Shown here one piece after another: positions 4,877 to 61,967 of a stretch of 64,000 bases of DNA. Both the position numbers and the translations under genes were made by a program. Position 1 is the stretch's first letter; the number at the start of each line of letters is the position of its first letter. The notes under the pieces were generated by a model, which was given only the letters and a program-made list of their open reading frames with translations, did no database searches and was not told where the DNA came from. The stretch is taken from contig JAPPIK010000032.1 in NCBI GenBank assembly GCA_028820655.1, positions 1-64,000 of the forward strand, in the 5' to 3' direction. Source of the stretch: Candidatus Poribacteria bacterium (GTDB lineage Bacteria > Poribacteria > WGA-4E > JAJDTR01).

Positions 4877-4911
4877 CGGAAAAAATCACGTCCATAGTGG
4901 AGGACATATAG

Positions 4912-5634: not shown

Positions 5635-5921
5635 GTGCCTTGGTGCGCACAACGCATGTTAGCGGAAGACACCCCAACCGGTTTTTGAGGATCACATTAA
5701 GATATATCGGGACAGCCCCGCAAGTTTTCATCGAATGTGGGACCACTAAAGCAGAGATTTCCATGGTGCAGGGGCCGCTGCTGCCCTCTTGATCCGCTCC
5801 GTTAATCCCGAGGTCCCGTCCCCATAAAGGGTTGCTTTTCGGTTCATCATCAGCTATACTTGAGCGGTGGATTGTGTTCAGAGTTGTGAAACGAGCTTGA
5901 CGTTCGGTAAAGGTATTTTCT

Positions 5922-6872: not shown

Positions 6873-6877
6873 ATTCA

Positions 6878-7537
6878 ATGGAGACAGCGCCGGTCACCAC
6901 CGCTGTTGTCACCGGAGGGCATAGTTACGATGTCATCAATTTTCGCCGGCTGTTCGGCGGTCTGGACGGCATCGACGCTCATGTCCAGCACATGGATGAT
7001 TTCGCGACATCGTCCGACGCGGAGCGGGATTCCTACGATGTGGTTGTCTTCTATCACATGTTGATGGACGGACCTCGAAACGAAGGCTTACCGTGGTATG
7101 CGGGGAACCCCAAAGCGGTTCTGGAACGCCTCGGCGAAACCCGGCAAGGCATCTTCATTCTTCATCATGCGCTCCTCGCCTATCCGCAATGGAGCGTCTG
7201 GGACGAAATTGTGGGATTGGACGACCGTTCTTTTGGCGCGCATGCCGGCAAATCACTTCATGTCGAAGTTGCGGATACGACGCACCCGATTACCCGCAAT
7301 TTATCGGACTGGAACATGCTTGATGAGACGTATACGATGGCTGAACCCGGAGCGGGTAACAATATTCTACTTACGGTCAAGCATCCGCAAAGCATGGAGG
7401 CTATCGCGTGGAATCGGGAGTACAAGAATAGTCGTGTGTTCTGCTTTCAGTCTGGCCACGATAACCAAACATGGTCGGACACGGGATTTAAAGAGATTCT
7501 ACGCCGTGGCATTCTGTGGTGCAGCAGGAGGCTTTAG
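6878..7537 (+). CDS. ThuA-like (trehalose-utilisation-type) domain protein
   Basis: About 219 residues with the class-I glutamine-amidotransferase-like fold of the ThuA family. AVVTGGHSYD opens the fold, DVVVFYHM is the third strand, and GIFILHHALLAYP is the usual nucleophile-elbow position, without a clear catalytic Cys. FCFQSGHDNQTW with its paired His is typical near the C-terminus. ATG at 6878 lies 7 bases after GGAGGT; a longer TTG start at 6863 would begin before the preceding gene ends and upstream of that ribosome site, so it is rejected. It is tightly coupled to the MDR dehydrogenase. ThuA proteins act on keto-sugars or are sugar-binding, and the biochemical role is poorly defined. 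Confidence 0.88.
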   Translation: METAPVTTAVVTGGHSYDVINFRRLFGGLDGIDAHVQHMDDFATSSDAERDSYDVVVFYHMLMDGPRNEGLPWYAGNPKAVLERLGETRQGIFILHHALLAYPQWSVWDEIVGLDDRSFGAHAGKSLHVEVADTTHPITRNLSDWNMLDETYTMAEPGAGNNILLTVKHPQSMEAIAWNREYKNSRVFCFQSGHDNQTWSDTGFKEILRRGILWCSRRL

Positions 7538-7755: not shown

Positions 7756-8160
7756 TTGAATCGAAGAAAACCAAGCAGCTCGCGCTCGCGCGGACAGCAG
7801 TACGGGACGGCCGGAAAGTCGCCGAGAGCGGGTGCTAGGAGAAAGAAAAAGAAAGCCAAAGAGAGATTGGCAAGAGAGAATCTCGACACCCAAGAAGGTG
7901 GGGAGTCTGACGACACGGGACGCAATCACAGCGATACGAAGGGTGACAAAATCGTGGTTGAGGGTACGGTTACCGAGACGCTGCCTAACGCCATGTTTCG
8001 TGTTGCACTAGATGAGGCTAGCGCGGAGCATCAAATCCTTGCGCACATCTCCGGTCGGATGCGGAAATTCTTTATCAAAATCTTGCCGGGCGACAAAGTA
8101 ACCGTTGAGTTGTCGCCGTATGACTTGACACGCGGCCGCATCACCTACCGGAAGAAATGA
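7756..8160 (+). CDS. infA: Translation initiation factor IF-1 with N-terminal extension
   Basis: Residues 63-134 are an IF-1 S1/OB domain ([36 protein letters not shown], ending in RGRITYRKK), the factor that occupies the ribosomal A site during initiation. Ordinary IF-1 is about 72 residues. Here an extra N-terminal stretch of roughly 62 residues precedes it, rich in Arg, Lys and Ser, then Asp, Glu and Gly. The TTG start at 7756 has AAAGGAGAG 8-15 bases upstream, so the extension appears to be translated. An internal ATG at 7993 is within the OB domain and too late to be the start. The basic tail may bind rRNA; that is inference. Confidence 0.88.
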
Positions 8161-8309
8161 TTCTCCGCTGACAATCGGCAAAGTACGGAAAAAGACGAGA
8201 TTATTGCGTCAATCCGTGAAGGAGGTTGTTTTGTACAGATCGGTCGATGGGAGTTGAAATCCTCGCACATTGACGAAGCAAGCGAATCGTCGCTTTTGGT
8301 TAGTCCGTT

Positions 8310-9563
8310 ATGAATCCCTACCTTGTTATCATCCTCGCCGCATTGATTGGGGAGTTTTTGCTCCGCAGTTTTGCTCGCTATCTCAACCTGAAAGCGCTCT
8401 CGCCAAACCTACCCTCCGAATTCGTTGGATTTTACGACGAAGAGAAATATCGCCGATCCCAAGAATACTCCAGAGCAAACACTAAATTTGCTTATGTTTC
8501 ATCAACCTTTGATTTGATCTTGATGGTTGGATTTATTCTGATGGGCGGGTTCAATTTTATCGACGGTTTGGCTCGGGATTGGACTTCTATGCCGATTCTC
8601 CGAGGATTTGTGTTCTTCGGGTTACTTTATGTCCTGAGAGATGTGCTGTCCACGCCTTTCGCGCTTTATGAGACCTTCGTGATCGAGGAGAGGTTTGGAT
8701 TCAACAAAACTACGGCGAAAACTTTCCTGCTTGATAAGGTCAAGAGTTACATCTTGGTTGCGGTGCTAGGAGCAATTTTGCTAGGCGGGATACTGTACTT
8801 TTTTGGCGAGACCGGAGACTGGGGTTGGCTTTACGCGTGGGGATTGGTTTCGGCGTTTATTATCGTTGCACCGTCGCTGTTCGTAACCGTCATCGCGCCG
8901 TTATTCAACAAGTTTACACCGCTATCCGATGGGCCCCTTAGGGATGCGATTGAAGAGTACAGTGAAAGTGTGAAGTTCCCGTTAACAGAAATATCGGTGA
9001 TGGATGGGTCAAAACGTTCAGGCCATTCCAACGCTTATTTTAGCGGATTTGGCAAGAAGAAGCGCATCGTACTATTCGATACGCTCATGGAGAAACACTC
9101 GGAAGAGGAGCTTGTCGCCATTCTTGCGCATGAGGTTGGCCATTATAAGAGGAAACATATTTTGAAGGGGATGCTTATCTCCATAGCGCACGCTGGTATC
9201 TTGTTCTACCTCCTTTCGCTGTTCATCGAGAATCGAGGGCTTTTTGATGCGTTTCGGATGGATCAGTTATCTGTCTACGCAGGATTGGTGTTTTTCGGTA
9301 TCTTATATTCCCCTATAGAACTTGTGCTTTCGATTGTAATGAACATCGTATCCCGGCAGCATGAATATGAAGCGGACGCATTCGCCGCAGACACGATCGG
9401 TTCACCGGAACCGCTGGTCAGCGGATTGAAAACCCTGTCGGTTTCCAATCTCGGGAATCTAACCCCGGACGATTTGACGGTAATCTTGAATTACAGCCAT
9501 CCACCGATGCTTCAGAGGATTGCTGCACTTCGAGCGTTGGGTATAGCTGCCCAGCGGGCATGA
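8310..9563 (+). CDS. M48 family zinc metalloprotease (CAAX protease 1/Ste24-like)
   Basis: Integral-membrane M48A metallopeptidase, 417 residues. The zinc motif HEVGH is at residues 274-278, and the third ligand Glu lies near 354 in YEADAFAAD. Several hydrophobic segments flank it (about residues 1-20, 65-85, 100-120, 150-170, 185-205, 290-310, 325-350), as in Ste24-type enzymes that cleave membrane proteins or lipidated peptides. Homologues usually carry the catalytic domain facing the cytoplasm. ATG at 8310 is the first good start, with no strong ribosome site. It stands alone between infA and the convergent smc gene. A role in membrane protein quality control is inferred. Confidence 0.93.
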   Translation: MNPYLVIILAALIGEFLLRSFARYLNLKALSPNLPSEFVGFYDEEKYRRSQEYSRANTKFAYVSSTFDLILMVGFILMGGFNFIDGLARDWTSMPILRGFVFFGLLYVLRDVLSTPFALYETFVIEERFGFNKTTAKTFLLDKVKSYILVAVLGAILLGGILYFFGETGDWGWLYAWGLVSAFIIVAPSLFVTVIAPLFNKFTPLSDGPLRDAIEEYSESVKFPLTEISVMDGSKRSGHSNAYFSGFGKKKRIVLFDTLMEKHSEEELVAILAHEVGHYKRKHILKGMLISIAHAGILFYLLSLFIENRGLFDAFRMDQLSVYAGLVFFGILYSPIELVLSIVMNIVSRQHEYEADAFAADTIGSPEPLVSGLKTLSVSNLGNLTPDDLTVILNYSHPPMLQRIAALRALGIAAQRA

Positions 9564-9781
9564 TGTTGGAGACCTTTCATTATGGACACGGCGCGGCCGA
9601 GTATTCCGGGGTTACTATTTCTTTTGGTCGGTAGTAGGAGAACAAGAGAAATCGGGAATAAAGCGATCCCTGTTTGCGCCGTGAGAAACGACAGACCGGT
9701 GCACGGTGCCTATAACTGCGTGAGCAAAGGTAGGATTTTCGGTAAGGTGTTTTTGCTGCGAAATGTTCGTCGTTCAAGCTT

Positions 9782-12700
9782 TTAGCCGCTAAACCGCGCC
9801 GAAACGACTTTCGAAACTCCCGCCTGTTCCATCGTTACCCCGTACATAACATCGGCAATTTCCATGGTACGCTTGTTGTGCGTAATTATGACAAATTGCG
9901 TGTGTTGGGCATAGTTGCGAATGAGCTTGGTGAATCGTAGGACGTTAGCTTCGTCAAGTGCAGCATCGACCTCGTCCAAGATACAGAACGGGCTAGGTTT
10001 AAGTTTAAAGATTGCGAAGAGTAATGCGATGGCAACCAGTGAGCGTTCGCCCCCTGATAGCTGCGTGATGCTCTGTGGTCGTTTCCCCGGTGGACAAGCG
10101 ATGATGTCAATCCCCGACTCCAATATGTCTGAGTCATCGGTCAAATCGAGTTCGGCTTCCCCGCCCTCAAAGAGTTCAGTGAAGACCTCTCGGAAATTTG
10201 CGCGAATCTTCTCGAATGCTTCCTGAAATGCCTCCCTCGAAGTTTGATCGATTTTCTGAATCCCTTTGTAGGTGGAGTCAAGAGACGTTTCCAAGTCCTC
10301 GCGCTGACGGACAAGGAATTCTTCCCGCTTTCTGTGCGCCTCATATTCGTCAATCGCTTTCATATTGACGGCGCCGATGTCCGCGATTTGCGCCTTGAGC
10401 GATTCGACCTGGTCGAGTAGCTCGATTTCGTTTATCGCTTCTTCGGTTGCCTGCACCTGCTCGATTGCCACTTGATATTTTTCGGTAATCCCGGCGGAAA
10501 TAGCCTTTTGCTGCATTTCTAGCTGAGTGACTGTGACTTCCTTTTGGTGGCGCAGCTTGTTGTGCCTTTCGCCCTGCCTTCTCGCGGTACGCATCGACTT
10601 TTGTAATACGGCATCGCGGTCTCTCAGTGCGTCGCGCTCTTCCATCAACAGGTTCACTTTTTCTTCAGCTTCGGCCTTTTCCTGTTCTACTAGCAGAAAC
10701 TGCTTCTGGGCTTCATCAATTTTTTGCGATAGGCTCTGCCGGATTTCATCATCTGAGTCGATAATCTTTTGATGTTCGCTCATGTCCGCGCGTACACGTG
10801 CTTGATTTTTCTCGGAAGCCTCAAGCCTAGCGTCAATACCGGATATTTGTTCGCGCCTGCTAGCTAGAGTGACCTCAAGTTCCTGGCACGAAACCATTAC
10901 TTCCTCGTGCTTGTTGCTTTCGCTCTGAACCTGCTCGGAGAAGCGTTTGATGCGATTTTGCAGCTTGTTACGTATTTTCAGAATCTCGTCAAGTTCGGTT
11001 TGACTGTTTTCGGAACTTTCTTTCGCTTTGTCAGCTTCCTCTTGAAAACGGGAACTCTCCGATTGTACTCCTTCCAATTCCTGCTTAAACTGCAGTATGT
11101 TCCGGTTGTGCTGATCCAAGTCTTTCACATGTCCCGCATACCTAATCTCACTTTCCTGTTGCTGACTTGCAAGTGATTCGTACGTCCGCTCAAGTTCTGC
11201 CAGTTTTGCGACATGCTTTTTTTGGTTCGTCTCTTTCTCGCCAATGGTAGATTTCAGATCATCAATCTTTGTCTGTAAATCTTCAAGTTCCCGCGGGCGG
11301 CTCAGAAAGCCCGCCGTCTGACTGGCGCTGGAACCACCGGTCACCGCTCCGAATGTGTTTATTATTTCACCTTCTACGGTAACGAGGCGGGAATTCGGGC
11401 GAAATCTCTGCGAGAGTTGGATTGCCGTATCGAGGTCTTTAATGACAACGGTATTTCCTAGCAACTGTCGAATTGCGATGTCGTATTTTGGTGCATATTC
11501 CACGAGATCCGAAGCTAAACCGATTACGCCTTTCTGATTGAGTAGTGACTCGTCACGGAATGACCTGGCACGCAGCATATCCAACGGTAAGAATGTCACC
11601 CGTCCGGCGCGAGTTTCTTTGAGGAACCTGATACCTTTCTTTGCGTCTTCGGCAGTTTCTGTTACGACGTTTTGAATGGCACCTCCCAACGCCACTTCAA
11701 CGGCCAACTCGTAATCGGAATTCGTGCGGATGAGTTCTGCGACCACGCCGCAGACTCCTCCGAATGTTTCCGGATTATCTTCTTTGGCCATCATGATGGC
11801 TCGAACGCCGGTGTAAAATCCCTCGTACGTCGACTGAAGATCTTTGAGTGATTTTAAACGCGAGGCATTCATACCGAGTGAGTCTTGCAATCCCCGCATC
11901 TCCGATTCAAGTTTTCGGAGCGAGTCCCTTCGTGCTTGGCGTTCTTCCTCAATTCGTCGCTTCTCGGTATCCAAATGCACCAACGTCGCCTTCAGCTGCT
12001 GTTCCTGTTTCTGCACCTCCGCCTGTGCCTCTTCCACGGATTCGAGTTTTCTTTGAACCTCCTCGACATTTCCAAGAACTCGGTCGAGGTTGTGCGAAGC
12101 GAATTCAAGCCTATTGTTGAGCGTCACAACCTCAGATTCAAGTTGGGATGCTTGATTCGCCTTTTCGGACAATTCCGCTTCGGTCTGGCTGATGGTTTGC
12201 TTTGTTTCGGCAATCCGCGTTGCAAAATCATTCAATACTCGCTGTCGTGCGGTTAAACGGCTTTCCTCCAGCTTGAGTGTCGCGTCGAGTTGGGATCGTT
12301 CTTGGTGGAGTTCACGTTTCTCGGTATCAAATTCGGCAAGCTGCTTTTCGTATGATTCAATCGCAAGTATTGCTCGTTGGCGTTGTTCATGGAGGTTCAT
12401 CTGGCTTTGCTTGTGTAGAGCAATATCGCGCTCGATTTGTTCAATCTTACTAGAGAATTGTGCGGTAAATCTGTTGCCTTCCTCAATGTCCGTGTCGAGT
12501 TGCGCCCTTCGTTCAATTAACCCCTCGCTCTCCTGTTCCGCAGATTGGATGGTGCTGTTCAGCTCATCAATCTCCGCCAGAAGATTATCCAAACTGACCT
12601 GTTCTTCAATTAAATCTTCAACAATTCGCTCGTACTCCCGACGCTTCTGATTGAGTTCGATACTCCTGAGTTCTTCGTGAAGTTGTTGGTGACGCTGGGC

Positions 12701-46732: not shown

Positions 46733-49291
46733 TCATCCCGGCAGATACTTGTCGTGGAGTTGATCCTTAATGACGCCCTCCGATATCCATTCTTCAATTT
46801 GTTCGTCCGGATAGCCGATTTCCTTCAGAACCTCTCTCGTATCGCTCCCAAGCTTCGGTATAGGGTTTCCTATCCTGATAGATGCATTCTTCAAGCGGGC
46901 ATACAACGGCGCGGGGGTGTCCACCGGATTTCCGATGGGATGATCCATCATCCGGATGACGGAGATCGAGCGGCCATCGTCCCATTCGCTGGCCGACGAA
47001 TCCGAATTGACCTGATGTAGATAGGCGTCGCGAATGTCTTCAAGGCAGTCCACGCGGTGGCAACCCAAGTCGGCCTCTTGAAAAATCTCAATCCAGTAAT
47101 CCACGGTCTGTGTCTGAATCGCCTCTTCCAAGAATTGAGCCTGTTCCTCATTCGATGCGTCCGAAACCGGAAAGTCGGCCAATGCCGGAATTTGCTTCAG
47201 CTTGCTCTGATCCGATTTTCGCCCGGCGAGAAACAGCCATGCGTCGTTGGCTCGGTATATGCGATACAGGGCGTGTTCGCCCGTCGCTTCCTGTCCCTGC
47301 GGTTCGCCGCCGCTACGATGCGCCTTCGTGGCATACATTAGCGGTGCTTGCACCAATTGCGCGCCCTGCGCAAGTGAGGTCATTGCCAGGTCGCCTTTCC
47401 CGCTTCGCTTGCGTTTGAACAGCGCCAGCGCCGCACCGAAACTAGCTGAGTAACCTGTTAGATAATCGACACAAGACGCCCATCCGTGCAGCATTGGTCT
47501 TTGGTCCTTGCCGCCGAACCGATGCATAATGCCGGTGGCGGCTTGCAACACAGGATCGAACCCCTTCCGATTGCCCCACGGGCCGGGACGAGGTCCGTTG
47601 AATGCGGTGAGGTGGACACAAATAATGTCCGGATTGTGCAGCCTCAAGCTCGGGTAATCAATGCCTACCCGCTCGGGGACGCCTGGACTAAAGTTGTGAA
47701 CAACGATGTCTGCCGTTTTCACTAACCGGTGGAAAATCTTTAGACCGTCATCGCTCTTGATGTCTAGGATAATGCTGCGTTTTCCCTGGCTTACCTCCAT
47801 GGCACTCCAGCACATTGTTCCCGGTCCGAAATAGGGTGACGGCGGGTCGATTTTGATGACGTCAGCGCCGTATTCCGCGAGCGTCCGAGCGCTTGTCGGA
47901 CCCGCCAACACCGTCGACAGGTCCAAGACCTTCAATCCGTCCAAGATTTGCTTCTTCGGTGTCTTCGTCGGCTCAAGCCCTTCCACGTCGGATTGATGTG
48001 TGAGGTCAGCGGAGTTCTTATCGACTTGACCGGGGAACCGCCTCGCCGGCCTTGGCTGAAGGCATTCATCCGGAGTTTTTGAGAGTGACGTTTGAACGCC
48101 GAATTGTCGCATCATTCCGTGTTCGGGGTCATCAATCGTTACTGTAAGTGCCGCAGCCTCCGGTTCAGGTGCGTGCAGCCATTCCTGAGCGGTACGGTGG
48201 ACAGTGAACGGAATACCGGCGGTTCGCATTGCTTGCTCCCAGCAAGCTGCCGGTTTCGTCAAAAACGCAGTCGTCATTCGCTCTCTGATTATATAGTTCC
48301 ACTCTTGTGAAAGCCCTCCGGGGTTTTGCACATTATTGGTTAGTTCGAGATTCTCGTAACACGGCGCATCGACCATGCCGTCACGAATAAGCGATTCGTA
48401 TATCCCGAGCGCCTTAAACAACTGAATTGTAAGCCTGCCGTTACCCGCGGTATGGAGGTGCACCCAGTTGTCGTCATCGGTTGGGTAGGTCGTGAGAAAT
48501 GGCGTTCCCAAGTCCGAAGCCTCACGCCAATACGCTTGTCGTTTGTCTTCGCTCATTTTTTCCACGTGAGCGCGTTCATCGCGTAGTTGTGCGACAAAAG
48601 ACGCTTTCGAAGATCTGCCTCTGAATGTCGCCGGGGGTTTTTCCACATGGAGAATCATTCCGCTCATTGCCGACATTGCCGCGCCCGCGAGCGGAACCTC
48701 GATCACTTCTCCGCAGCCGTTCTCCTCCCTCGCATAAAGCGCTAATACAACCGCGAGTGCGCCATGAATCGCACCGTAAGCGGAGCCCATCGGAATCGGC
48801 GTGTAAACCGGTGGAGCGCCGACGAGTCTCCGCCTCGCAGGATGTAAATCCCAGTAGAGACCGCTCGCCGATCCAACGACACCTTCGAAGGCACGAATTG
48901 TGCATTTTTCACTGTCTGTCGATGCGAAACCCGGTAGGGACAGGTAGACCAACCGAGGGTTTGACTTTGTCAATTCATTGTGGCCGAGGCCGAGACGGGT
49001 CATCACACCGGGGCGAAAGTTCTCAATCAATACATCCGCGGATTGAATCAGGTTCTTCGCGGTTTTTAAGCCTTCCGGCGTTTTCAGGTCGAGTTGCAAT
49101 TTTTGTTTTCCGCGATTAAACGTCGCGTTGGCTGGCGTATCGAAGTCGGGCTCACCCGGTCGATCGATCTTGATGACCTCCGCGCCTTGGTCGGCGAGGA
49201 GCATGCCGACGAGGGGACCGGCAATGTAGTGACCGAAATCAACGACGCGTATTCCGGTGAGAGGGGGTTGAGTTTCTAACGCTGTGTCCAT
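46733..49291 (-). CDS. Tandem-fused class III (CaiB/BaiF) CoA-transferase
   Basis: About 852 residues holding two CaiB/BaiF domains. Domain 1 opens GIRVVDFGHYIAGPLVGMLLADQGAEVIKID and domain 2 opens GLKVLDLSTVLAGPTSARTLAEYGADVIKID, at about residue 445. In domain 2 the catalytic-Asp block reads NRKGFDPVLQAATG, as expected. In domain 1 the aligned block reads IRAFEGVVGSASG, with Glu for the nucleophilic Asp, so half one may be inactive or altered. A usual family member has about 400 residues and works as an interlocked dimer, so the fusion could form that dimer in one chain. ATG at 49289-49291 follows AGAGG; GTG at 49312 is the longer option. Acyl substrate unknown. Confidence 0.9.
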   Translation of the reverse strand: MDTALETQPPLTGIRVVDFGHYIAGPLVGMLLADQGAEVIKIDRPGEPDFDTPANATFNRGKQKLQLDLKTPEGLKTAKNLIQSADVLIENFRPGVMTRLGLGHNELTKSNPRLVYLSLPGFASTDSEKCTIRAFEGVVGSASGLYWDLHPARRRLVGAPPVYTPIPMGSAYGAIHGALAVVLALYAREENGCGEVIEVPLAGAAMSAMSGMILHVEKPPATFRGRSSKASFVAQLRDERAHVEKMSEDKRQAYWREASDLGTPFLTTYPTDDDNWVHLHTAGNGRLTIQLFKALGIYESLIRDGMVDAPCYENLELTNNVQNPGGLSQEWNYIIRERMTTAFLTKPAACWEQAMRTAGIPFTVHRTAQEWLHAPEPEAAALTVTIDDPEHGMMRQFGVQTSLSKTPDECLQPRPARRFPGQVDKNSADLTHQSDVEGLEPTKTPKKQILDGLKVLDLSTVLAGPTSARTLAEYGADVIKIDPPSPYFGPGTMCWSAMEVSQGKRSIILDIKSDDGLKIFHRLVKTADIVVHNFSPGVPERVGIDYPSLRLHNPDIICVHLTAFNGPRPGPWGNRKGFDPVLQAATGIMHRFGGKDQRPMLHGWASCVDYLTGYSASFGAALALFKRKRSGKGDLAMTSLAQGAQLVQAPLMYATKAHRSGGEPQGQEATGEHALYRIYRANDAWLFLAGRKSDQSKLKQIPALADFPVSDASNEEQAQFLEEAIQTQTVDYWIEIFQEADLGCHRVDCLEDIRDAYLHQVNSDSSASEWDDGRSISVIRMMDHPIGNPVDTPAPLYARLKNASIRIGNPIPKLGSDTREVLKEIGYPDEQIEEWISEGVIKDQLHDKYLPG

Positions 49292-49433
49292 TCTCAAAAT
49301 CCTCTTCTCCACGTTGATGAATGTCTATTGCAGGTTCTTGAGTGTATGTTAACCCGCCTGCATGAGCGGCTACGATGACTGGCTTGCGGTGCGCTCCATA
49401 CAAGCTTCGGAGTCTCGTTGAGTGTCACTACGA

Positions 49434-50708: not shown

Positions 50709-51402
50709 TGACTTGATGCATCTCTCTCAATGAAAACAGGTCATCGAATCTTCACGTGTCGGATTGTTGAAGTACAATAACCCTAGGTAGCACGCCATTA
50801 TCCCAGACGGCATAATTCATTCAGGATTTAACCCTCTTGTACCGCAAACTGTTAGTTTGCGATTACAATCCATCAGCGGGACACATTCATATTTCGCTCT
50901 TCAACAGGTTATGATAGGGTGTGACTTGAAAGCGTGCCATTGTCCCTATCGGAACAATTCTTTCACTTAACAACACTTCATCTTGAATATATGACAGGCT
51001 TTGAGAAGGTGTTCCTTCGTAGAAGGCTTTTCACGCCAGCGGAGTGCGATGTCAATAGAACACGGTTCCTCCCCGCGTCTGCACTCCAGCGGAGTGCAAT
51101 GTCGAGAGTTACTTGAGAACACCCCTTTATCCTGTGGGAATAATTCTCTCAACGAGTAGCACCCGTTTTTCGCTCGGGAGGAGATCAATCGCCTGGTCAC
51201 GGAGCGTGATAGAGATCCCCAATGTCCGTAAAAGGCAACGAACCAAATTCTTGCACTCTAGCGGAGTGCGATGTCAATAGAACGCTCAGTTTCAAATTCA
51301 CAAGTGCCGCGCCACGCATTTGACATTGATGGATCACCAATCCCCATGGGAAGGATTCCAAGTGTCTACAACATTACCATGCTTCGGACACTCTTTGAAT
51401 CT
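50709..51402. other. Intergenic region with palindromic repeats
   Basis: No gene recognised. Three copies of a unit containing GCACTC(C/T)AGCGGAGTGC then ATGTCAATAGAAC or a variant lie at about 51034-51061, 51081-51108 and 51253-51283; the palindrome is GCACTCC-AGC-GGAGTGC in the middle copy. A degenerate GATC element is at 51181-51220 (GATCAATCGCC...GATAGAGATCCCC). Confidence 0.6.
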
Positions 51403-52905
51403 CTACTCCGCTCTCACCCGCTGTACTCGTGCTATTCGAGGTTTTTGACGCTGGGATCTTTCCTGTTTTTCCCGTTGCGGATGGATTCTTGGCTGGCGAC
51501 TGAGGCGTTTCAGCAATCGCTCGACTTCCTCCTCGTAGGTTTGAAACGGGTCCTCCATTTCAAACGGCTCCTCGTGCGTAAAATAGATTTGATGCCAATC
51601 GACAATGCACGGCATGTTATTTTTAGATAGGTAGCGCATAACAGCGGCTCGCGCTTTCGCGCGTGTAGCTTCCGGAGCATTACGAATCGCGGCATCAATA
51701 TTCTCTGGTGTTACGAGTTTAATCATTTGCCCCTGGTTTTCCAGTTCACAAAATAGACTCCGTTCCGGATCGATGTGGTGGTATTCAAGGTCAAGGCTTT
51801 CAAGCCACGAGTCAGCCCAGCTCAGCCCTTCCTCCTCCATGAAAGTCTCAAGCAGCCATTTTTTTGCCGCCCAATCCACTCGATCGCGCACACTCTCCCA
51901 GTCTTCTTCGAGATCGTCTAGCACAGATTCCCAATTCGTCAAAACCCAATCCGTATCGGCGTCCTGTCCCTTCAAAAATTTTTGCGCAAGTTCAAGGTAT
52001 TTGCGTTGAAGATCGATCGCCGACATTGTGTCACCGGATTCAAGTTGCACGATCCATTGAAAGGTTTGATCTCGCGAGATGTCTTTCAATGCCCCCACCG
52101 GATCGGCTAGAGCAATATTTCCGGGTTGGTGCCCCCGTTCAATGAGGTCAAGTACTAACGATGTCGTCCCAACTTTCAGCGCGTTGGCGAATTCGGACAT
52201 ATTCGTGTCTCCGACGAGAAGATGGAGACGGCGATATTTCGTGTAGTCCGATAGCGGCTCATCCCGCGTGTTTATGATTGCCCTGCTAAACTGAATCCAT
52301 TCATAAATCTCGGTAACGATATGATCGGCACGTTGAGATATCTGATAGCCGTGAAAAGCGTCGCCACTGGGCTGTACGTCCTCGAAATCCAGGATTTCTT
52401 CATACCCTCCGACTCTGCCTGCCCCCGCATAAATCTGCCTCGTAACGAAAAATGGCATCAGTGCCGGAATAACTACCTTGTAGAAGGGAATGTCACGCCG
52501 AAGTTGATAGTTTTCGTGACAACCGAAAGTAGCGCCCGTGAAATGGTCGATGTTGTTCTTGAAAAACGAAACGGACTCATTTAAACCCAGCTCATCCGTG
52601 ATATGAGTGATCAAGCGCTCAATTGCTTTGTCGTAGGCGACCAGGGACAAAAGGTCAACGCACTCGGGGGTTGCATATTCGAGGTGCCCCATGTCTATGT
52701 AAAGCCGCCCGCCATTGAACAGGAATCCGCCATTACCCGGAGGTTCGCCATAGTCGCGGTAATGTATGTCGGAAATACCGAGTTGCAGTTCGTGGAAGAC
52801 GTGGTCCCTAACCACGGAGGCGACTCCTTCGGATGAGATGTTCAGTTGGTTCGCTTCTATCATACATCCGAATTCTGTTTCGATTCCAAAAATGCGCTTG
52901 CTCAA
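51403..52905 (-). CDS. pafA: PafA-type ligase for the ubiquitin-like modifier
   Basis: 500 residues of the PafA/Dop family (glutamine-synthetase-like fold). FGIETEFG opens the ATP site, and LFNGGRLYIDMGHLEYATPEC carries the catalytic Asp in the place of the mycobacterial one. ISQRADHI, INTRDEP and RRLHLLVGDTNMSEF are later blocks. It lacks the Dop loop and ends DPFQTYEEEVERLLKRL, like PafA's DPF...VKRL, so it is PafA rather than Dop. It should join the C-terminal Glu of the modifier to target Lys. Last gene of the operon, 42 bases after prcA. Confidence 0.95.
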   Translation of the reverse strand: MSKRIFGIETEFGCMIEANQLNISSEGVASVVRDHVFHELQLGISDIHYRDYGEPPGNGGFLFNGGRLYIDMGHLEYATPECVDLLSLVAYDKAIERLITHITDELGLNESVSFFKNNIDHFTGATFGCHENYQLRRDIPFYKVVIPALMPFFVTRQIYAGAGRVGGYEEILDFEDVQPSGDAFHGYQISQRADHIVTEIYEWIQFSRAIINTRDEPLSDYTKYRRLHLLVGDTNMSEFANALKVGTTSLVLDLIERGHQPGNIALADPVGALKDISRDQTFQWIVQLESGDTMSAIDLQRKYLELAQKFLKGQDADTDWVLTNWESVLDDLEEDWESVRDRVDWAAKKWLLETFMEEEGLSWADSWLESLDLEYHHIDPERSLFCELENQGQMIKLVTPENIDAAIRNAPEATRAKARAAVMRYLSKNNMPCIVDWHQIYFTHEEPFEMEDPFQTYEEEVERLLKRLSRQPRIHPQREKQERSQRQKPRIARVQRVRAE

Positions 52906-52947
52906 GATCTTCCTCGAGTATCTCGGTTTTTGCCGTGAAGGGATTGA

Positions 52948-53733
52948 TTACAGCCAACCGGCGGTCAGGTTTTCAATCTCCTCCGGCTGAAGTAAACGGA
53001 ATTTGCTGTTACCTCGTCGGGTAGTGTCCAAGACCGCTGCCTCAATCTGTCCTTCATTCAGTTCCGTCTTTAACACTTCGTGAATCTGCGCTGGATCTGC
53101 GGGTGATTCGTCAGTTTCGGGTCTATCCGTTTCATCATTCTCTTGTAGGCTTAGGTCTCTTCCTACCGCCCACGTTTCCAAAGCCAAGCGTACGGTAGAA
53201 TTGAGCGATCCATCGTTGGAATCGGAAGCAGCCAAAGATTGGTTCATCGCATTCTCAATGGCGTCGGTGCCGCCAATAAGTTGTGCATGGCGGTTGGTCA
53301 CGACGGTCCCATCGTAGCTTATGGAAATGAACTGATTCTCTCTACCGAGCGTCCCCAATTCAGCCAATAGCATCTTAATGATGGGTGCGCCTCCGAAAAT
53401 AGCCTCGAACGCCTGCTTTATTGCGGGACCAAGGACAAAGTTGGCTAGCCGATGCAGCGTTACATCATCCACGGAGTTTTGGAATCCCTGAACAGAAGCA
53501 GTGTCCGTCGCCAACATTCGTAACTGCTCAATATATGCAGGATGTCCGATTGCGGACAATGCAGTTCGGTTGTGTACTTCGAAAATCTTTCGTTGACCAC
53601 CTCCAACCGTCAGGAGCAACATTCCTTCGTTATAGTTCAAACCAACGACAGGACTACCTGGTCGAAGTTGATCTTCAACATAGTCTCTACGATCATTAAT
53701 CGCCTCAATCCAGCGATATGGTTCATCAAGCAT
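52948..53733 (-). CDS. prcA: 20S proteasome alpha subunit
   Basis: 261 residues. YVEDQLRPGSPVVGLNYNEGMLLLTVGG is a proteasome-type opening, although the strand pattern is diverged from actinobacterial PrcA. FEVHNRTALSAIGHPAYIEQLRML follows, as in alpha subunits. No N-terminal Thr is available, as expected for the non-catalytic ring. The C-terminal quarter (about residues 200-230, acidic DETDRPETDESPADP) precedes a conserved end. ATG at 53731-53733 overlaps the end of prcB by 8 bases, which indicates translational coupling. Alpha rings gate the entry to the beta chamber. Confidence 0.9.
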   Translation of the reverse strand: MLDEPYRWIEAINDRRDYVEDQLRPGSPVVGLNYNEGMLLLTVGGGQRKIFEVHNRTALSAIGHPAYIEQLRMLATDTASVQGFQNSVDDVTLHRLANFVLGPAIKQAFEAIFGGAPIIKMLLAELGTLGRENQFISISYDGTVVTNRHAQLIGGTDAIENAMNQSLAASDSNDGSLNSTVRLALETWAVGRDLSLQENDETDRPETDESPADPAQIHEVLKTELNEGQIEAAVLDTTRRGNSKFRLLQPEEIENLTAGWL

Positions 53734-54559
53734 AGTCTACGTCAACAGATTCGGTATAGATTTCGTCTAGTTGTTGCTCGGGCAAATCGCGAATACCCTC
53801 CCGAGTGATTGTCTTGGCTGTGGGGAAAATGCGGGATTTCGGGTTATAGCCGCTAGTTGCGACATCGTATTCGGATGCTGTGTCAAGAAGCCTCAACACG
53901 GTGCGAGTCGCCTTCTGCAAGTCCATTTCGGCGAGTGGCCCGCCCTCCCAGCGGTCCAAATATCGTAAGATCCCCCGAATCCAGACCGAACCGGAACCGG
54001 ACACCGCAAAAGCAGCGTTTTCAAAGTGCGCTCCGAGCGCATCATAAAAGTAAATCTTTCCGCCATTCTCATCTTCTTGATGATTCATATCGTATAGAGC
54101 GAGAATAGGGATGACTCCCCCGATACCCTGTAATGCCATTGGCAAGTTTTCCCGAATAAGACGTGAAAGCATCCTTAACTTTCCCTCCACGCTTAACTCT
54201 TGGAGTTGACTTCGACGGAAATATTGAAACGAATGTTCAAGGACTCTCGCCACTTCGTAGGCAATAGCAGGCGATCCGGAGATAGCCAGCACGGAGTAAT
54301 CATCAATCGACAGCACTTTCTCGGCCCGGTCGTACATGACGGACGTTCCAGCCGTTGCTCTTCGATCTCCGGCAATCAGAATCCCATCTTGATAGCGCAC
54401 CGCAATAACGGTTGTTCCCTCCGCTACCTCCAAGCTATGGGTGCCCGAATCTCCGGCAGCTCCAAACGGCAAACTTCCTGAATTCAAATCGTCGGTCCCG
54501 AGTTGGATATGGCAGTTCTGGGATTTCAAGAGAGTGAGGAAGTCCCCTTTGTGGCTCAT
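53726..54559 (-). CDS. prcB: 20S proteasome beta subunit with propeptide
   Basis: 277 residues. A 48-residue propeptide ends EVAEG, and cleavage leaves TTVIAVRYQDGILIAGDRRAT, so Thr49 is the N-terminal nucleophile. AGD supplies the active-site Asp and YDRAEKVLS the Lys (mycobacterial Lys33 position). SGSPAIAYEVARVLEH and LQGIGGVIPILALYD match PrcB. The frame allows TTG at 54562, but ATG at 54557-54559 follows at once. It starts directly after the stop of the modifier gene, so the two are coupled. It forms the proteolytic inner rings. Confidence 0.96.
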   Translation of the reverse strand: MSHKGDFLTLLKSQNCHIQLGTDDLNSGSLPFGAAGDSGTHSLEVAEGTTVIAVRYQDGILIAGDRRATAGTSVMYDRAEKVLSIDDYSVLAISGSPAIAYEVARVLEHSFQYFRRSQLQELSVEGKLRMLSRLIRENLPMALQGIGGVIPILALYDMNHQEDENGGKIYFYDALGAHFENAAFAVSGSGSVWIRGILRYLDRWEGGPLAEMDLQKATRTVLRLLDTASEYDVATSGYNPKSRIFPTAKTITREGIRDLPEQQLDEIYTESVDVDYA

Positions 54560-54562
54560 CAA

Positions 54563-54760
54563 TTATTCCCCTGTTCGCTGCCGATAGTTGCGCGACTGGT
54601 TTTTCTTGACACGCCGCATGCGGTCGAGTAGCTCCCGCCTGTCGGGACTGTTCGTATCCGGACGTTTCGGTCCGTCATCATCGCCGCCGTCGCCAGGTCC
54701 AAAGGGTTTCGCCGGTCGCTGTTGTCGATCTCTCAAGTGCAAAAGCATAACTGCTGTCAT
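54563..54760 (-). CDS. UBact: ubiquitin-like protein modifier (Pup-like)
   Basis: 65 residues, too short to stand out except for context. The C-terminus ELLDRMRRVKKNQSRNYRQRTGE has the UBact family ending (YRQRTGE), where the last Glu would be attached to target Lys by the PafA-type ligase. The middle (PFGPGDGGDDDGPKRPD) is disordered and rich in Gly, Asp and Pro. It is in the slot that pup occupies in Actinobacteria. As it ends in Glu, not Gln, no deamidation by Dop is needed. ATG at 54758-54760 has GGGAGGA 8 bases upstream; ATG at 54748 is an alternative; a longer frame to 54883 is not supported. UBact is a family described in the literature, and this copy is a clear member. Confidence 0.9.
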   Translation of the reverse strand: MTAVMLLHLRDRQQRPAKPFGPGDGGDDDGPKRPDTNSPDRRELLDRMRRVKKNQSRNYRQRTGE

Positions 54761-54912
54761 GATGATGTCCTCCCGTGATGAACACAAATCTGCGTTTTTA
54801 GTTCCGCGATAATGAGAAAGTAAGCGGGCAACTGGAATCGGGACGCAAGGATTGTATGACTTGCTTCCGGTACATGGCGCCACTTTCTAAGTGATTAGGT
54901 GTTTCAAGCTCG

Positions 54913-56430
54913 CTAGTTCCGAATTCCCAAACTGTCTACCAAGGATTCCACCGTTGATGAATTGTTGAGAACTCGGTTGTATTCCGCTGCCAGGGTTGGA
55001 TCAGCAAGTTTTTTCATACACACGAATACGGGTTTTCCCTTTACGTTGAACGTGATATTGTCCCACTGAATGGATTTCACATCGGCGCTAAATTTGTTGA
55101 GCGACTTTCCACGAAAATACGCCCGCGTGTCTGAGGGGGGATGGTGTATGGCGTGTTCAATCTGCTGATTTGTTACAACGCGGCGCATCGACCCCTGTGA
55201 TTGGAGTCCATAATATAATCCCTTGTCCTGATTGATATTGTGATATTCCAGATCGAGGCTTTGTAACCACGGATCGTCCCAACTGACTCCTTCTTCATCG
55301 ATGAATGTCTCCAGCAACCACTTTTTCGCAACCCAATCCAGGCTGTCCGCCAAACTCATCGGATCTTTTTCGAGACGATCTAGAACAGATTCCCATTCAG
55401 TGAGCACCCAATCGGTCTCAGAGTCCTCGCCAGCAAAATGTTGCTGAGCCAAATTCAAATATTCGCGTTGTAAGTCAATAGCAGAGATTATTCTCCCGTT
55501 ATTTAATTTTAATTTCCACTCATAGGTTTGATCGCGAGAAATCTCCTTTATTGTCTGAGTGGGGTTGTTAACGGCAAAACTGTCGGGAATTTGTAGCTTT
55601 TCAATTAGGCTAATCACTAGCGCTGTCGTACCAAGTTTCAGCGCTGTAGAGTATTCGGACATGTTGGCATCACCCACTATTCCGTGAAGCCGGCGGTACT
55701 TGGCCGCGTCTGCATGCGGTTCGTCGCGTGTATTCACAATCGGGCGGTTGTGCATCGTGTCTACACTGATTTCTACATGAAAGAAATCCGATCGCTGCGC
55801 CAATTGAAAGAATCCGGCAGAACTGATTCCAGACTCGGTTTCGATACCAACCTTACCCGCCCCGGCGAAAATCTGCCGCGTTACAAAAAACGGCATGATG
55901 CTTTCTTTCAGGTAATCGAACTCAATCTCCCGCTTCATCAGGTAGTTGTCATGGCAACCGTAACTGTGTCCATGAAAATCGGTATTGTTTTTATAGAGTA
56001 ACACCTCACGATGTAGTTTCTCGCTGCGGCGAGCGGCACACTGACGCAGAATTCGTTCTCCGGCTTTATCGTGCGCGATTAGTTCAAACAAACTTCGGCA
56101 TTCTGGCGTGGAATATTCTGGATGGGCGTGGTCATTGTAAAGACGTGCCCCATTGACAAGAATCATGTCGCTCTTGATTTCATTATAGGCAAGGTTGCGC
56201 TGACGGTCTTGTTCCTGATACTGGCGTTCATCCGGGTGTTCTTGTAGCTCGCTGGCGCGAAATCCACGTTCGTCGCGAAACGGATCTTCTCCGTCATAGT
56301 CCCACATCGGACGAAAATCCCCTTGCCGATAACTCTTTATAAGCTCAATCGACAATTGAACCGGATCGATATTTTTCTTGTTTTCGATTGTTATGCCGTA
56401 TTCTGTTTCAATTCCGAACAGTCTTTGCAT
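54913..56430 (-). CDS. dop: Dop-type depupylase/deamidase homologue
   Basis: 505 residues. MQRLFGIETEYG starts like PafA/Dop. A Dop loop is present (DPFRDERGFRASELQEH through QRNLAYNEIKSD), which PafA lacks. VNGARLYNDHAHPEYSTPEC holds the catalytic Asp. ISRDQTYEWKLKL and GSMRRVVTNQQIEHAIHHPPSDTRAYFRG match Dop's C-terminal block. It should remove the modifier from proteins; deamidation is not needed for a modifier ending in Glu. It is followed after 152 bases by the UBact gene, which also leaves room for a separate promoter. Confidence 0.95.
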   Translation of the reverse strand: MQRLFGIETEYGITIENKKNIDPVQLSIELIKSYRQGDFRPMWDYDGEDPFRDERGFRASELQEHPDERQYQEQDRQRNLAYNEIKSDMILVNGARLYNDHAHPEYSTPECRSLFELIAHDKAGERILRQCAARRSEKLHREVLLYKNNTDFHGHSYGCHDNYLMKREIEFDYLKESIMPFFVTRQIFAGAGKVGIETESGISSAGFFQLAQRSDFFHVEISVDTMHNRPIVNTRDEPHADAAKYRRLHGIVGDANMSEYSTALKLGTTALVISLIEKLQIPDSFAVNNPTQTIKEISRDQTYEWKLKLNNGRIISAIDLQREYLNLAQQHFAGEDSETDWVLTEWESVLDRLEKDPMSLADSLDWVAKKWLLETFIDEEGVSWDDPWLQSLDLEYHNINQDKGLYYGLQSQGSMRRVVTNQQIEHAIHHPPSDTRAYFRGKSLNKFSADVKSIQWDNITFNVKGKPVFVCMKKLADPTLAAEYNRVLNNSSTVESLVDSLGIRN

Positions 56431-56563
56431 AGTAGGAGATTCTGCCGGAAAACCTGGGTTAGGCGCAATAAAGATGAAGTGTCACCTAGGGGTATTATGC
56501 GCTACCTATGAGAATGGAGGGTGGATGTCCGTCGCTTAAGTGTGTTAAGAATCGCGCACGGAG

Positions 56564-58315
56564 CTAAATCACACGCCCGGCGGTCTTTCTCTGCGGCGAT
56601 TTTTCCGGCCGCACCGGAGATACCTTCACAACGTTCTCAGCATCGTAATCAAGCAACTTGAGCCAGTCCTCAACACTGTCTGTTGATGGGAAAATATCGC
56701 TTTCGCGATATTCGGCGGCAAGCGCTTCCATCAAGTCCGACATCCCAATACCCGTCGTCTGTTCCAAGTTGCTGATTGCACGTTTAATCGCAGATTCTTT
56801 TGCTCTCTGTACAATAGACTCAATGATGGCACCGCTGCATAGATGACCGCGATAGAGAATATCCCGCCTGCCGTTTCGCAAACCGACTTCTAGGAACTTG
56901 TTCTCCTCCGTTGGCTGATACATCTCGTCGCTAACCAAATCTATCAGATTGTTGACGGCTAATTCAACATTACCGTCATGAGTTCTAACAACCTCTGGAT
57001 CGATAGGGAGTTCTGGCGTCAAATAGATGCGGAAGATGTCCTTTGCCGCCTCGCCATCGGGGCGCGTCACTTTGATTTTTCTATCGATGCGGCCGGGGCG
57101 CAGAATGGCTGGATCAATAAGGTCAGGTCGGTTTGTTGCGAGAATAATGACGACATCTTGAAGCGATTCTATGCCATCCATCTCGGCGCAAAACATTGGA
57201 ACAACGGTGTTCGCTATATTGTGAGATCTATAAGATCGGCGTGTTCCCAGAATTGATTCTGCTTCGTCGATAAACACGAATGACAGATAACCATCTTGTC
57301 GTTTTTCTCGAGCAATCTGAAATATCTCGCGAACCTTCCTTTCGGATTCTCCCAGCCACATGTTCAAGATTTCAGGGCCCTTGATATGCAGGAAACAGCC
57401 TTCGACACTGCTTCCGGTTTCTGCTTTTAGCCTTTCGGTCAGGTTGTGTGCCGTCGCTTTGCCTATCAGCGTCTTGCCGCAACCGGGAGGTCCGTGCAAC
57501 AGGAATCCTTTGGGGGCGCTGTATTGAAAACTCTCAAATACTTCCGGATGCAGAATCGGGAGTTCAATGGTGTCTTTAATGAGTTCTATGGTGTCGTTCA
57601 GCCCGCCAACCTTTTCCCAAGGTATCTCCGGAACTTCCTCCAAGTAGTAGTCCTTGACCTCCTGAGTTTCTAATCGTTCAAGCGCGACCTTGAAGTTCGG
57701 GTCGATGCGGACTTCATCCCCTACCTTCAGTTTCTTGTTGGCAAGGTCTGTGGACCGTTCCAAAATTACAGCCTGTGTCGAAGGTTCCTGTCCGACGCGC
57801 AATCTGCCATCCGGCAAAATGTCACCAACCTTCCCTATGGGGCCGGCATCGGAGTAGCCGAGTTCTCCCACTATGACATACGCCTCATTGAGGAGAACAC
57901 TGAAACCAATTTTGAATGCATATGAATCCAATTGGGAGTCTATATTTGCGAGGTACTCCGACCCCCCGACCACAACGCGAGCCACTCCTTTTTTCGGGAA
58001 ACCAAGGAGAGTACCTATCCGATTCGCAGGGGCGGTTAGTTTGTCAACTGTTTCCTGCATGTCAACGATGGCTTGCCGAGCCTCTTGGAACGTGACCTCG
58101 TCCTCAATAATCGCACGGCGGAGTTCATACAGGAGTGATCGTCTACGATCATTTTCGTGTGTTGCGTATAGAAGCTGATCAACAAGCATCAAAGAACGAG
58201 GAGCGGCTACATCTTCTTCGATATTGTCGGATTCTTCGGCAAAATCGTCATCATATACGTCAAAGCGGTCATCGGATCGCCTTTCGGATTGATTCCGATT
58301 CTTGTTGTCACGCAT
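56564..58315 (-). CDS. mpa: Proteasomal AAA ATPase (Mpa/ARC)
   Basis: 583 residues. Residues about 40-105 form a coiled coil (DQLLYATHENDRRRSLLYELRRAI...), which in Mpa recruits Pup. Two OB-like segments follow (NRIGTLLGFPKKGVARVVVGG; VGDILPDGRLRVGQ). The AAA domain has Walker A GPPGCGKT near residue 275, Walker B FIDEAES near 350, and ATNRPDLIDPAILRPGRIDRK. The C-terminus ends KTAGRVI and lacks the GQYL gate-opening tail of Mycobacterium. ATG at 58313-58315 follows GGGAGGA; a 14-codon longer frame is not needed. It unfolds modified proteins into the proteasome. Confidence 0.95.
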   Translation of the reverse strand: MRDNKNRNQSERRSDDRFDVYDDDFAEESDNIEEDVAAPRSLMLVDQLLYATHENDRRRSLLYELRRAIIEDEVTFQEARQAIVDMQETVDKLTAPANRIGTLLGFPKKGVARVVVGGSEYLANIDSQLDSYAFKIGFSVLLNEAYVIVGELGYSDAGPIGKVGDILPDGRLRVGQEPSTQAVILERSTDLANKKLKVGDEVRIDPNFKVALERLETQEVKDYYLEEVPEIPWEKVGGLNDTIELIKDTIELPILHPEVFESFQYSAPKGFLLHGPPGCGKTLIGKATAHNLTERLKAETGSSVEGCFLHIKGPEILNMWLGESERKVREIFQIAREKRQDGYLSFVFIDEAESILGTRRSYRSHNIANTVVPMFCAEMDGIESLQDVVIILATNRPDLIDPAILRPGRIDRKIKVTRPDGEAAKDIFRIYLTPELPIDPEVVRTHDGNVELAVNNLIDLVSDEMYQPTEENKFLEVGLRNGRRDILYRGHLCSGAIIESIVQRAKESAIKRAISNLEQTTGIGMSDLMEALAAEYRESDIFPSTDSVEDWLKLLDYDAENVVKVSPVRPEKSPQRKTAGRVI

Positions 58316-58942: not shown

Positions 58943-60424
58943 TTAATCAATCTCCACAACTCCCAGGTCTCCAATCTCCGACTGTTTCCAGTCTAGCTTC
59001 TGCTCATTCCACTCAAACACTTGCAAGGGGCCGAACTGCAAATTGACGGTTAAGCTTTTTGGCGTAGGCGAGCTGTCAAATCGATTGAAGTCCCGAATTA
59101 CGACATAGGTGTGTTGCCCATCGGCAATGTCCATACAGGAAGCGATGAAATCGTCAAGACCATGGATCGCCCTCCCGTTTATTTCTTGTATCACTACCTT
59201 TGAATTGCCACTGCGCTCGCGAATTCCAACCCGTGAAAAGCTACTACCCGCGTCGGCGTGTGGGAGGTAAGCACCTTCCGCTTCAAAGTAGAGCATGCGC
59301 CGCAGATCCGGGGTTATGTCGTGAAAAATTGAACCGGCGAAGCGAACAAATCGTCGAACTTTTTTAAGCTCGAGATCTTCGACCGGTATTTTGACAGTCA
59401 TCTGTTCTCCGTTGCGGTATATCTCCAACACTACTTCTGATCCAACACTACCGTTAAGCATTGAGTCGAATGTGTAAAGATCGTCGCGGATGAGATCGTC
59501 GTTTATGCGGTAGATGATGTCCGAGGCACGGAGGAAGTTCTCGCCGGTAGTACGAGGGATAATTGACTCAACTTGAATGACTTTCGGTGTTCCCGATTCC
59601 GAAGGCCCAATTTCTGCTCGCGATGATTCCGGTAACCTGAAATGCTTGATCGCCTCGCCAATCGAAATAAGTTCCAAGTCTACGCCAATCTCGCCGCGAT
59701 GAATTGAAACACCGTTTTGAATGCGAGTTAACGCATCAATCAGGTATTCGACCGGAAGTTCGAAGCTGGATGTGTCAGTTCCGCGTGCGTGAATGGCGAT
59801 CACTCTTCCTTCTGTATTCCATACGGGACTTCCGCTTGAGCCTCCCGTCCGGTCAAAGGTCGTGTGAATATAGCTCGAGTGCCGATTACCTTTGTTAACA
59901 TTGAGATTGGCGACTTTTCCTTCTTTGATTGAATATTCTTCTTTTTCATTATTGCCTATTAGCAAGAGTTCATCGCCTAACGCAAGATCTCGCCACGCAC
60001 CAAGTTGCACCGCTTCAAGGGAAAACTCGACTTCCTCGGGGTTTATCTGGTAGAAACCGAAGTCATGTGTGGGGTCGTAATAGAAAACCTTCGCCTCGGT
60101 AAAACTCCCGTCGTAGAAATTTATCTTGACGTACGACGGACTGCTGCCGGTGACATGACGGTTGGTCGCGATAATTCCGCGTTCTTCGTCAACTATAAAT
60201 CCTGTAGCGAAGCTGGTACCTTTTGCCTCGGTTTCAAAGACAACCTCAGATGAGGTTTCCACATTTACAACCATGGGTTTAAATGCAGCGATCTGATCGG
60301 TCCAATTGTGAGCGGCTTGACTCTTCTGCGTGGTGGCAAGAGAAACTAGAATTGTCGCGATACACCAGAAGAGATTCTTTCTAGCCTGACTCGAATGATT
60401 GAGGATCGCAAAAGAATGGGACAT
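58943..60424 (-). CDS. HtrA-like trypsin-fold protease with PDZ-like domains
   Basis: 493 residues. A signal peptide or anchor lies at residues 17-37 (LFWCIATILVSLATT). The S1C triad is His90 (ATNRHV), Asp121 (HDFGFY) and Ser197 (GGSSGSPVW). Two PDZ-like domains follow: about 235-330 (IGVDLELISIGEAIKHFRL; ASDIIYRINDDLI) and 350-450 (GNSKVVIQEINGRAI). This is the layout of DegP/Nma111-type proteins, which degrade or refold damaged proteins in the envelope. It lies upstream of the proteasome operon on the same strand but 600 bases away, so it is probably a separate unit. Confidence 0.9.
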   Translation of the reverse strand: MSHSFAILNHSSQARKNLFWCIATILVSLATTQKSQAAHNWTDQIAAFKPMVVNVETSSEVVFETEAKGTSFATGFIVDEERGIIATNRHVTGSSPSYVKINFYDGSFTEAKVFYYDPTHDFGFYQINPEEVEFSLEAVQLGAWRDLALGDELLLIGNNEKEEYSIKEGKVANLNVNKGNRHSSYIHTTFDRTGGSSGSPVWNTEGRVIAIHARGTDTSSFELPVEYLIDALTRIQNGVSIHRGEIGVDLELISIGEAIKHFRLPESSRAEIGPSESGTPKVIQVESIIPRTTGENFLRASDIIYRINDDLIRDDLYTFDSMLNGSVGSEVVLEIYRNGEQMTVKIPVEDLELKKVRRFVRFAGSIFHDITPDLRRMLYFEAEGAYLPHADAGSSFSRVGIRERSGNSKVVIQEINGRAIHGLDDFIASCMDIADGQHTYVVIRDFNRFDSSPTPKSLTVNLQFGPLQVFEWNEQKLDWKQSEIGDLGVVEID

Positions 60425-61043: not shown

Positions 61044-61967
61044 TCAGTGCTTCTTTTGGGTGCCTTTCACATTGTCGTTGCCTGCGGACTCGCTTTTACC
61101 CCCTGTGGTTGTCGACTTTTTATGTGATTGAGCAAGATACTCAAACAGGTTGGGTTCATCGGTGTCGGCTTCGATGTCATCGGCTTGAAGCACCGTTTCA
61201 TCCGACACCTCGGCGGGTTGTTTCTTGGTTGTGTCAGGTAGATTTCGGGTAGGCGTCGGTGGGGATTTGCTTGTTGTGGGATTACCTGATGAATCTACTC
61301 GATCACCTGTTTCAAGTCGTTCTATTCGGTCCAAGGCTTGATGTAGCGTTTTTCGCACCATCATGAGTTGATCTTGGAGGTTTTCCACACGTTTGGTCAA
61401 CTGGGTAACCCCGTCGTCGTCGGAATCTCCTTGGCGATTTTCGGGTGTAGATGACGAAAATGGGTGACGACTTGGTTTGTTAGCGTCTTTTGGGGGCGTG
61501 ACAACCGCCGAAGGCTGTGAGCTAGGGGCGGATTCTTTGGAAGGACCCTTGGTCGAGGGCTCTTCGGAGTGGACATCGATCAATTTGATTTCATAGATGC
61601 CTGCGCCTATTCCCTTATTGGAGAAATATGAAATCCGAACTATTGCTTCTTGACCAATCTCCATCTTGCCGAGACGAAGGCTAAGATTCCAGATAACCGC
61701 GTCATTGTGCCAAGCAAGCTCCCAATCTGGACGGCGATTGAGTCCGCGCAAATAGGCAGTGACAACGCTTGTATCAGAGATATTCTGTACCAAGGGCTCA
61801 GTAGTTAAGGTTCCCGAAACTTCGGCAACTTGAGATTGAACCTCAACTTCCGATCGTGGTTGTACAATTGACATGGGGATTTCCCCATGCTCCGCCTTCA
61901 TGGTGGTTACCCATCCAGCATCGCTTATCCGCTTGCACGCGATATTATAATGGTATTGAACTGCCAT
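61044..61967 (-). CDS. Hypothetical coiled-coil protein
   Basis: 307 residues. Residues about 35-135 look like one beta-rich domain (EVQSQVAEVSGTLTTEPLV, VVTAYLRGLNR, IYEIKLIDV). A Ser/Pro/Lys-rich linker follows, then a coiled coil near 185-222 (VTQLTKRVENLQDQLMMVRKTLHQALDRIERLE) and a polar tail ending KGTQKKH. No signal peptide, so it is probably cytoplasmic. I do not recognise a family. The start could be ATG at 61967 or a later Met; no good ribosome site decides it. It is followed on the right by a PfkB-type kinase gene on the same strand, 74 bases upstream. Confidence 0.65.
   Translation of the reverse strand: MAVQYHYNIACKRISDAGWVTTMKAEHGEIPMSIVQPRSEVEVQSQVAEVSGTLTTEPLVQNISDTSVVTAYLRGLNRRPDWELAWHNDAVIWNLSLRLGKMEIGQEAIVRISYFSNKGIGAGIYEIKLIDVHSEEPSTKGPSKESAPSSQPSAVVTPPKDANKPSRHPFSSSTPENRQGDSDDDGVTQLTKRVENLQDQLMMVRKTLHQALDRIERLETGDRVDSSGNPTTSKSPPTPTRNLPDTTKKQPAEVSDETVLQADDIEADTDEPNLFEYLAQSHKKSTTTGGKSESAGNDNVKGTQKKH

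Follow-up and report, generated by a model that had tools for sequence, protein, structure and literature searches.

The locus described here raised the question whether six consecutive genes on a contig of Candidatus Poribacteria bacterium constitute a complete UBact-proteasome operon. The window, which is the whole stretch of DNA that was analysed, comprised 64,000 nucleotides.

The UBact-proteasome operon of the window

Based on the open reading frames of the window and on profile matches, six genes were found consecutively on the minus strand, all of them open, in the order mpa-dop-UBact-prcB-prcA-pafA. The actinobacterial order on a single strand, as proposed in an earlier note on this DNA, was thus confirmed, and the same order was observed in relatives. 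The features were as follows, including a neighbouring protease.

58943-60424, minus strand: HtrA-like protease with Trypsin_2, PDZ_2 and PDZ_1 domains (Pfam), not judged part of the system
58315-56564, minus strand: mpa, ATG start preceded by a GGGAGG box at about 7 nt (the ORF as listed mechanically reaches 58357)
56430-54913, minus strand: dop, depupylase-type enzyme with the Dop-loop Trp and the catalytic Asp
54760-54563, minus strand: UBact modifier, ATG start, 65 aa, ending in NYRQRTGE
54559-53726, minus strand: prcB, ATG right behind the modifier stop codon (the ORF list begins at TTG 54562)
53733-52948, minus strand: prcA, divergent 20S alpha subunit, assigned by TIGR03691 (1.3e-19), solved PrcA chains (1e-10) and position
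52905-51403, minus strand: pafA, TTG start, UBact ligase without the Dop-loop Trp

The modifier scored above the cut-offs of both UBact models (NF033388, 62.5 bits against 35; PF20513, 57.7 bits against 27.8), and the ending RQRTGE, which had been noticed before, was read at its C-terminus. No Pup-model modifier ending in GG[EQ] was found at the window locus; TIGR03687 matched only the locus on contig C17 in this genome, which is described below. The product of mpa was a UBact-type proteasomal AAA ATPase with a coiled coil, two OB domains and an AAA domain (Pfam AAA and Prot_ATP_ID_OB_N/C, the latter being the two proteasomal-ATPase OB domains). Its top family was TIGR03689 (468 bits, under the curated cut-off), M. 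tuberculosis Mpa matched at 3.5e-106 among solved chains, and the C-terminus AGRVI ended in RVI without the docking motif GxYx.

Both dop and pafA matched PF03136. For dop, TIGR03688 gave 516 bits, above its cut-off of 492, Acidothermus Dop was matched at 1e-127 among solved relatives, and the W-D-x motif and the Asp were conserved. For pafA, the scores were close (TIGR03686, 369.5 bits; TIGR03688, 360.5 bits), and solved Pup ligase and Dop both matched at about 1e-77. The two ligase-fold genes were therefore separated by the W-D-x motif, which occurred in 27 of 28 UBact-side dop genes and in no UBact-side pafA gene, together with the tree, where pafA grouped with other UBact-side pafA genes with a support of 100. 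The NCBIfam models of Mpa, PrcB, PrcA and PafA were the top matches yet stayed below their curated cut-offs, and those of UBact and Dop passed.

The prcB product was a 20S beta subunit with a propeptide, matched by PF00227 and by the Rhodococcus and Mtb PrcB chains, and its Thr1, Asp17 and Lys33 were kept in 23/23 UBact-type relatives. No Pfam match was obtained for prcA, in which the Lys aligned with that of Mtb PrcA SLQKISE was kept in 22/22 relatives. The 8-base overlap of prcB and prcA that the note had reported lies at 53726-53733. With the adjacent ligase/Dop pair, the Mpa and the 20S genes of the UBact-proteasome system all present, the window locus is a complete UBact-proteasome operon and a member of a known family, whose testable features were all found.

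Several other observations were made in the window. Three CACTCCAGCGGAGTGC-like palindromes were located at 51032-51269, just downstream of pafA, where 0.01 would be expected in the whole window. A promoter scan upstream of mpa gave one match, compared with 1.5 in shuffled sequences. At 46733-49312, one frame of 859 aa carried two tandem CoA-transferase family III domains, and a 307-aa protein encoded two genes upstream of mpa (61044-61967) had no Pfam match.

The HtrA-like gene adjoins the operon as the note had stated, and from this neighbourhood a cluster of cytoplasm and envelope quality control had been suggested. In the only same-genus relative, the contig broke within mpa, and the rest of mpa was located on the contig holding HtrA, at a distance of about 0.4 kb from that gene; the HtrA-mpa linkage is therefore common to the genus. 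In complete relatives, the HtrA orthologue (74-78% identical) was absent from the flanks of the UBact operon and lay more than 150 kb away; in G012, for example, the distance was about 156 kb, and in G015 it was 660 kb. Since HtrA adjoins mpa only in the genus of the window, the quality-control cluster was not supported and was rejected beyond the genus, and the position of HtrA next to mpa is a local feature.

UBact was detected above the model cut-off in 76 of the 85 genomes of the phylum Poribacteria, so the description of this locus as "unusually clear" was not apt, because nearly all Poribacteria carry the modifier. The recurrence of the RQRTGE-like end in relatives, on which the earlier note had staked its reading, was borne out: among 26 modifiers examined, 24 ended in RTGE and 2 in RTGQ, and RTG[EQ] was invariant. 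The C-terminal block of the modifier was VKKNQSRNY in the genus of the window and VDKDQSRRY in others. The operon order was conserved through the order, except in family f7, where in most members UBact-prcB-prcA-pafA lay apart from mpa-dop (L052, L055 and L056 versus L170-L174). In G046 (L049:5931-8991), about 3 kb separated prcB from prcA of the UBact operon, genes which elsewhere overlapped or nearly touched, and in G064 (L057:11769-13039) the UBact-side pafA was split into several frames, by gene decay or by assembly errors.

A Pup-type operon in the same genome

By whole-genome search with Dop and Mpa, a second full operon was located in the genome of the window, on contig C17 (L123:4118-10784). 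It is of the canonical Pup type, with the order mpa-dop-pup-prcB-prcA-pafA, and its genes in L123 were the following.

4118-5929: mpa
5978-7468: dop
to 7839: pup
7842-8666: prcB
to 9407: prcA
9411-10784: pafA

The modifier matched the Pup model and ended in FVENYIQRGGQ, with the GG[EQ] end, and Mpa ended in GGAYL, a GxYL-like tail, with 620 bits against M. tuberculosis Mpa. These findings, along with the six-gene order, identified the C17 locus as a Pup operon.

Pup was found in 78 of 85 Poribacteria genomes. Comparison of the UBact list with the Pup list over the 85 genomes gave 71 with both systems, 5 with UBact only, 7 with Pup only and 2 with neither. Several of the single-system cases were incomplete assemblies; G003, G023 and G062, which were 90-96% complete, lacked UBact as well as any UBact-side Dop or Mpa. 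Fragments aside, the Mpa scores fell into two bands, about 700-745 versus 440-496 bits, and both Mpa types occurred on one chromosome in six single-contig Poribacteria genomes. All six gene types were duplicated, with system-specific copies of Dop and PafA forming their own clades. G062, mentioned above as a genome without UBact, had a third PafA-like gene on contig C215 (L131), which was divergent and placed on a long branch.

In the samples of other phyla, 10 of 388 Verrucomicrobiota and 56 of 77 Nitrospinota genomes were positive, and only the UBact-type Mpa was present, once per genome. In Verrucomicrobiota, L061 and L062 contained a UBact-type dop (L062 also mpa), and no UBact, prcBA or pafA was detected within 8-10 kb downstream.

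In the tree, the four enzyme types (two Dop and two PafA) formed four clades, and because these mostly followed the families of the phylum, both systems look old in Poribacteria. The tree joined UBact-side Dop with UBact-side PafA (SH-aLRT 85), but a single Dop clade was not rejected (p-AU 0.37), and independent duplications of Dop and PafA are therefore not claimed.

Charge and tail differences, proposed mechanism and alternatives

The two systems differed in the charge of the tag and of the proteins that handle it, a contrast that represents one evolutionary split sampled many times. The net charge of the C-terminal 26 residues of the tag was +5.3 on average for UBact (4 to 8) and -9.1 for Pup (-10 to -8). 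The coiled coil of Mpa before the OB domain carried a charge of -8 to -1 in the UBact type and -1 to +4 in the Pup type. Without exception, the tail of Mpa was a hydrophobic pair in the UBact type (n=28, with GxYx in 0/28) and G-x-[YF]-[LF] in the Pup type (n=29). Per 100 residues of the whole protein, the charges on the Pup and UBact sides were +0.1 and -5.7 for PafA, -3.4 and -5.3 for Dop, and -3.2 and -4.8 for Mpa. PrcB is not a tag-binding protein; used as a control, it showed no acidic shift (-3.9 and -3.2), and the shift of the control PrcA was slight (-6.3 and -7.2).

In total, 14 aligned columns were more acidic in both UBact-side enzymes, PafA and Dop, compared with 4.1 expected and none as high in 5000 permutations, and 11 of the 14 fell within residues 319-390 of C. 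glutamicum PafA. On the UBact side, the net charge of this 80-column segment was -13.7 in PafA and -15 in Dop, versus -0.9 and -0.1 on the Pup side. Outside the segment, UBact-side Dop was not more acidic, and UBact-side PafA was more acidic throughout. Because the tag is the common ligand of both enzymes, we infer that the acidic segment is a candidate tag-binding surface. The same charge signs were found in the UBact systems of Verrucomicrobiota and Nitrospina, which come from UBact-only phyla. Selection for insulation by cohabitation was therefore not supported, and the charge inversion is a family trait rather than a response to cohabitation.

As in the homologous pupylation reaction, the PafA-type ligase would use ATP to join the gamma-carboxylate of the C-terminal Glu of UBact to a target lysine. 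Dop would strip the tag, and would not be required for maturation because UBact already ends in Glu. The hexamer of UBact-type Mpa would bind the helix of UBact with its coiled coils, thread the target and deliver it into a 20S core built from PrcA and PrcB, where Thr1 of PrcB would cut. The C17 operon would perform the equivalent steps with Pup, whose GGQ end would require Dop. Opposite charges on the surfaces that bind the tags, together with the different tails of Mpa, would hold the two sets largely apart; the two systems look chemically inverted, and thus may coexist without mixing. Taken together, the complete UBact operon is quite probably one of two parallel and largely insulated tag-proteasome systems in the cell, as judged from homology and sequence features. 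The broader proposal, that in nearly the whole phylum two complete ubiquitin-like tagging systems with their proteasomes share one cytoplasm and are insulated from each other through inverted electrostatics of tags and enzymes and through different ATPase docking tails, could equally well hold or fail.

A mixed network was also considered, in which UBact and Pup have separate ligases but share Mpa types, 20S subunits or Dop, and the duplication reflects dosage or condition-specific expression. It draws on the pocket of PrcA, where the Lys and the residues next to it were the same in both types, so that cross-docking could still occur on the alpha ring, on the identical catalytic residues of both cores, and on the genomes that lack one system and still have the other, a fact which also speaks against the two-system reading. 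Dop and PafA, however, exist as system-specific copies in their own clades, the other four gene types are duplicated too, and the charges of tag and enzymes change together with the tail of Mpa, which makes such sharing rather unlikely. That the UBact operon is a degenerate Pup relic, its modifier drifted and conjugation lost, is very improbable: PafA, PrcA, PrcB and Mpa scored under the NCBI cut-offs, but the frames were open, the catalytic residues were conserved in relatives, the RTG[EQ] tail was found in 26/26 modifiers and the UBact of the operon was retained in 76 of 85 genomes. Least credible of all is that the Pup operon reflects metagenome-bin contamination or recent transfer with UBact alone native, since, although most genomes look like metagenome assemblies and the two operons lie on different contigs of the window's genome, six single-contig genomes hold both Mpa types, which contradicts contamination as the source, and the Pup-type enzymes of 27 Poribacteria entries formed one clade each, following the families of the phylum.

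Comparison with known systems

The original work on UBact-proteasome systems in Gram-negative phyla is reportedly that of Lehmann, Ciechanover and colleagues. Compared with the known UBact systems (NF033388, PF20513), the window operon agrees in the family and the RTG[EQ] terminus of its modifier, in its set of genes and in their order. The UBact finding itself is therefore ordinary, one more member of a catalogued family; what is unusual is the co-occurring Pup system outside the window, and the Pup/UBact pair of Poribacteria may already have been noted in the UBact literature. With both machineries available from one and the same genome, the co-occurrence supplies natural Pup/UBact pairs with which the tag specificity of ligase, remover and proteasome can be probed, and the charge-swap hypothesis is concrete and testable with recombinant proteins.

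Poribacteria differ from the sampled Verrucomicrobiota and Nitrospinota, where only UBact-type Mpa was seen, in adding a full Pup system. The actinobacterial Pup-proteasome system, to which type the C17 operon belongs, shares the six-gene order, the enzyme folds and the catalytic residues with the UBact operon, which differs in that its tag is basic, a segment of its enzymes is acidic, its Mpa tail lacks GxYx and its modifier precursor has the terminal Glu from the start. M. tuberculosis Mpa binds Pup by its coiled coil and docks through its GQYL tail on the alpha ring (PMC8755798). A partial precedent for coexistence is Leptospirillum ferrooxidans, for which a figure legend (Fig. 2) of a 2012 review describes two whole systems with the same gene context and very different sequence, one Pup being without GGE, in one species and attributed to transfer from Acidimicrobiales (PMC3511204). 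Poribacteria likewise hold two systems in one genome, and compared with that single species, their pair is phylum-wide.
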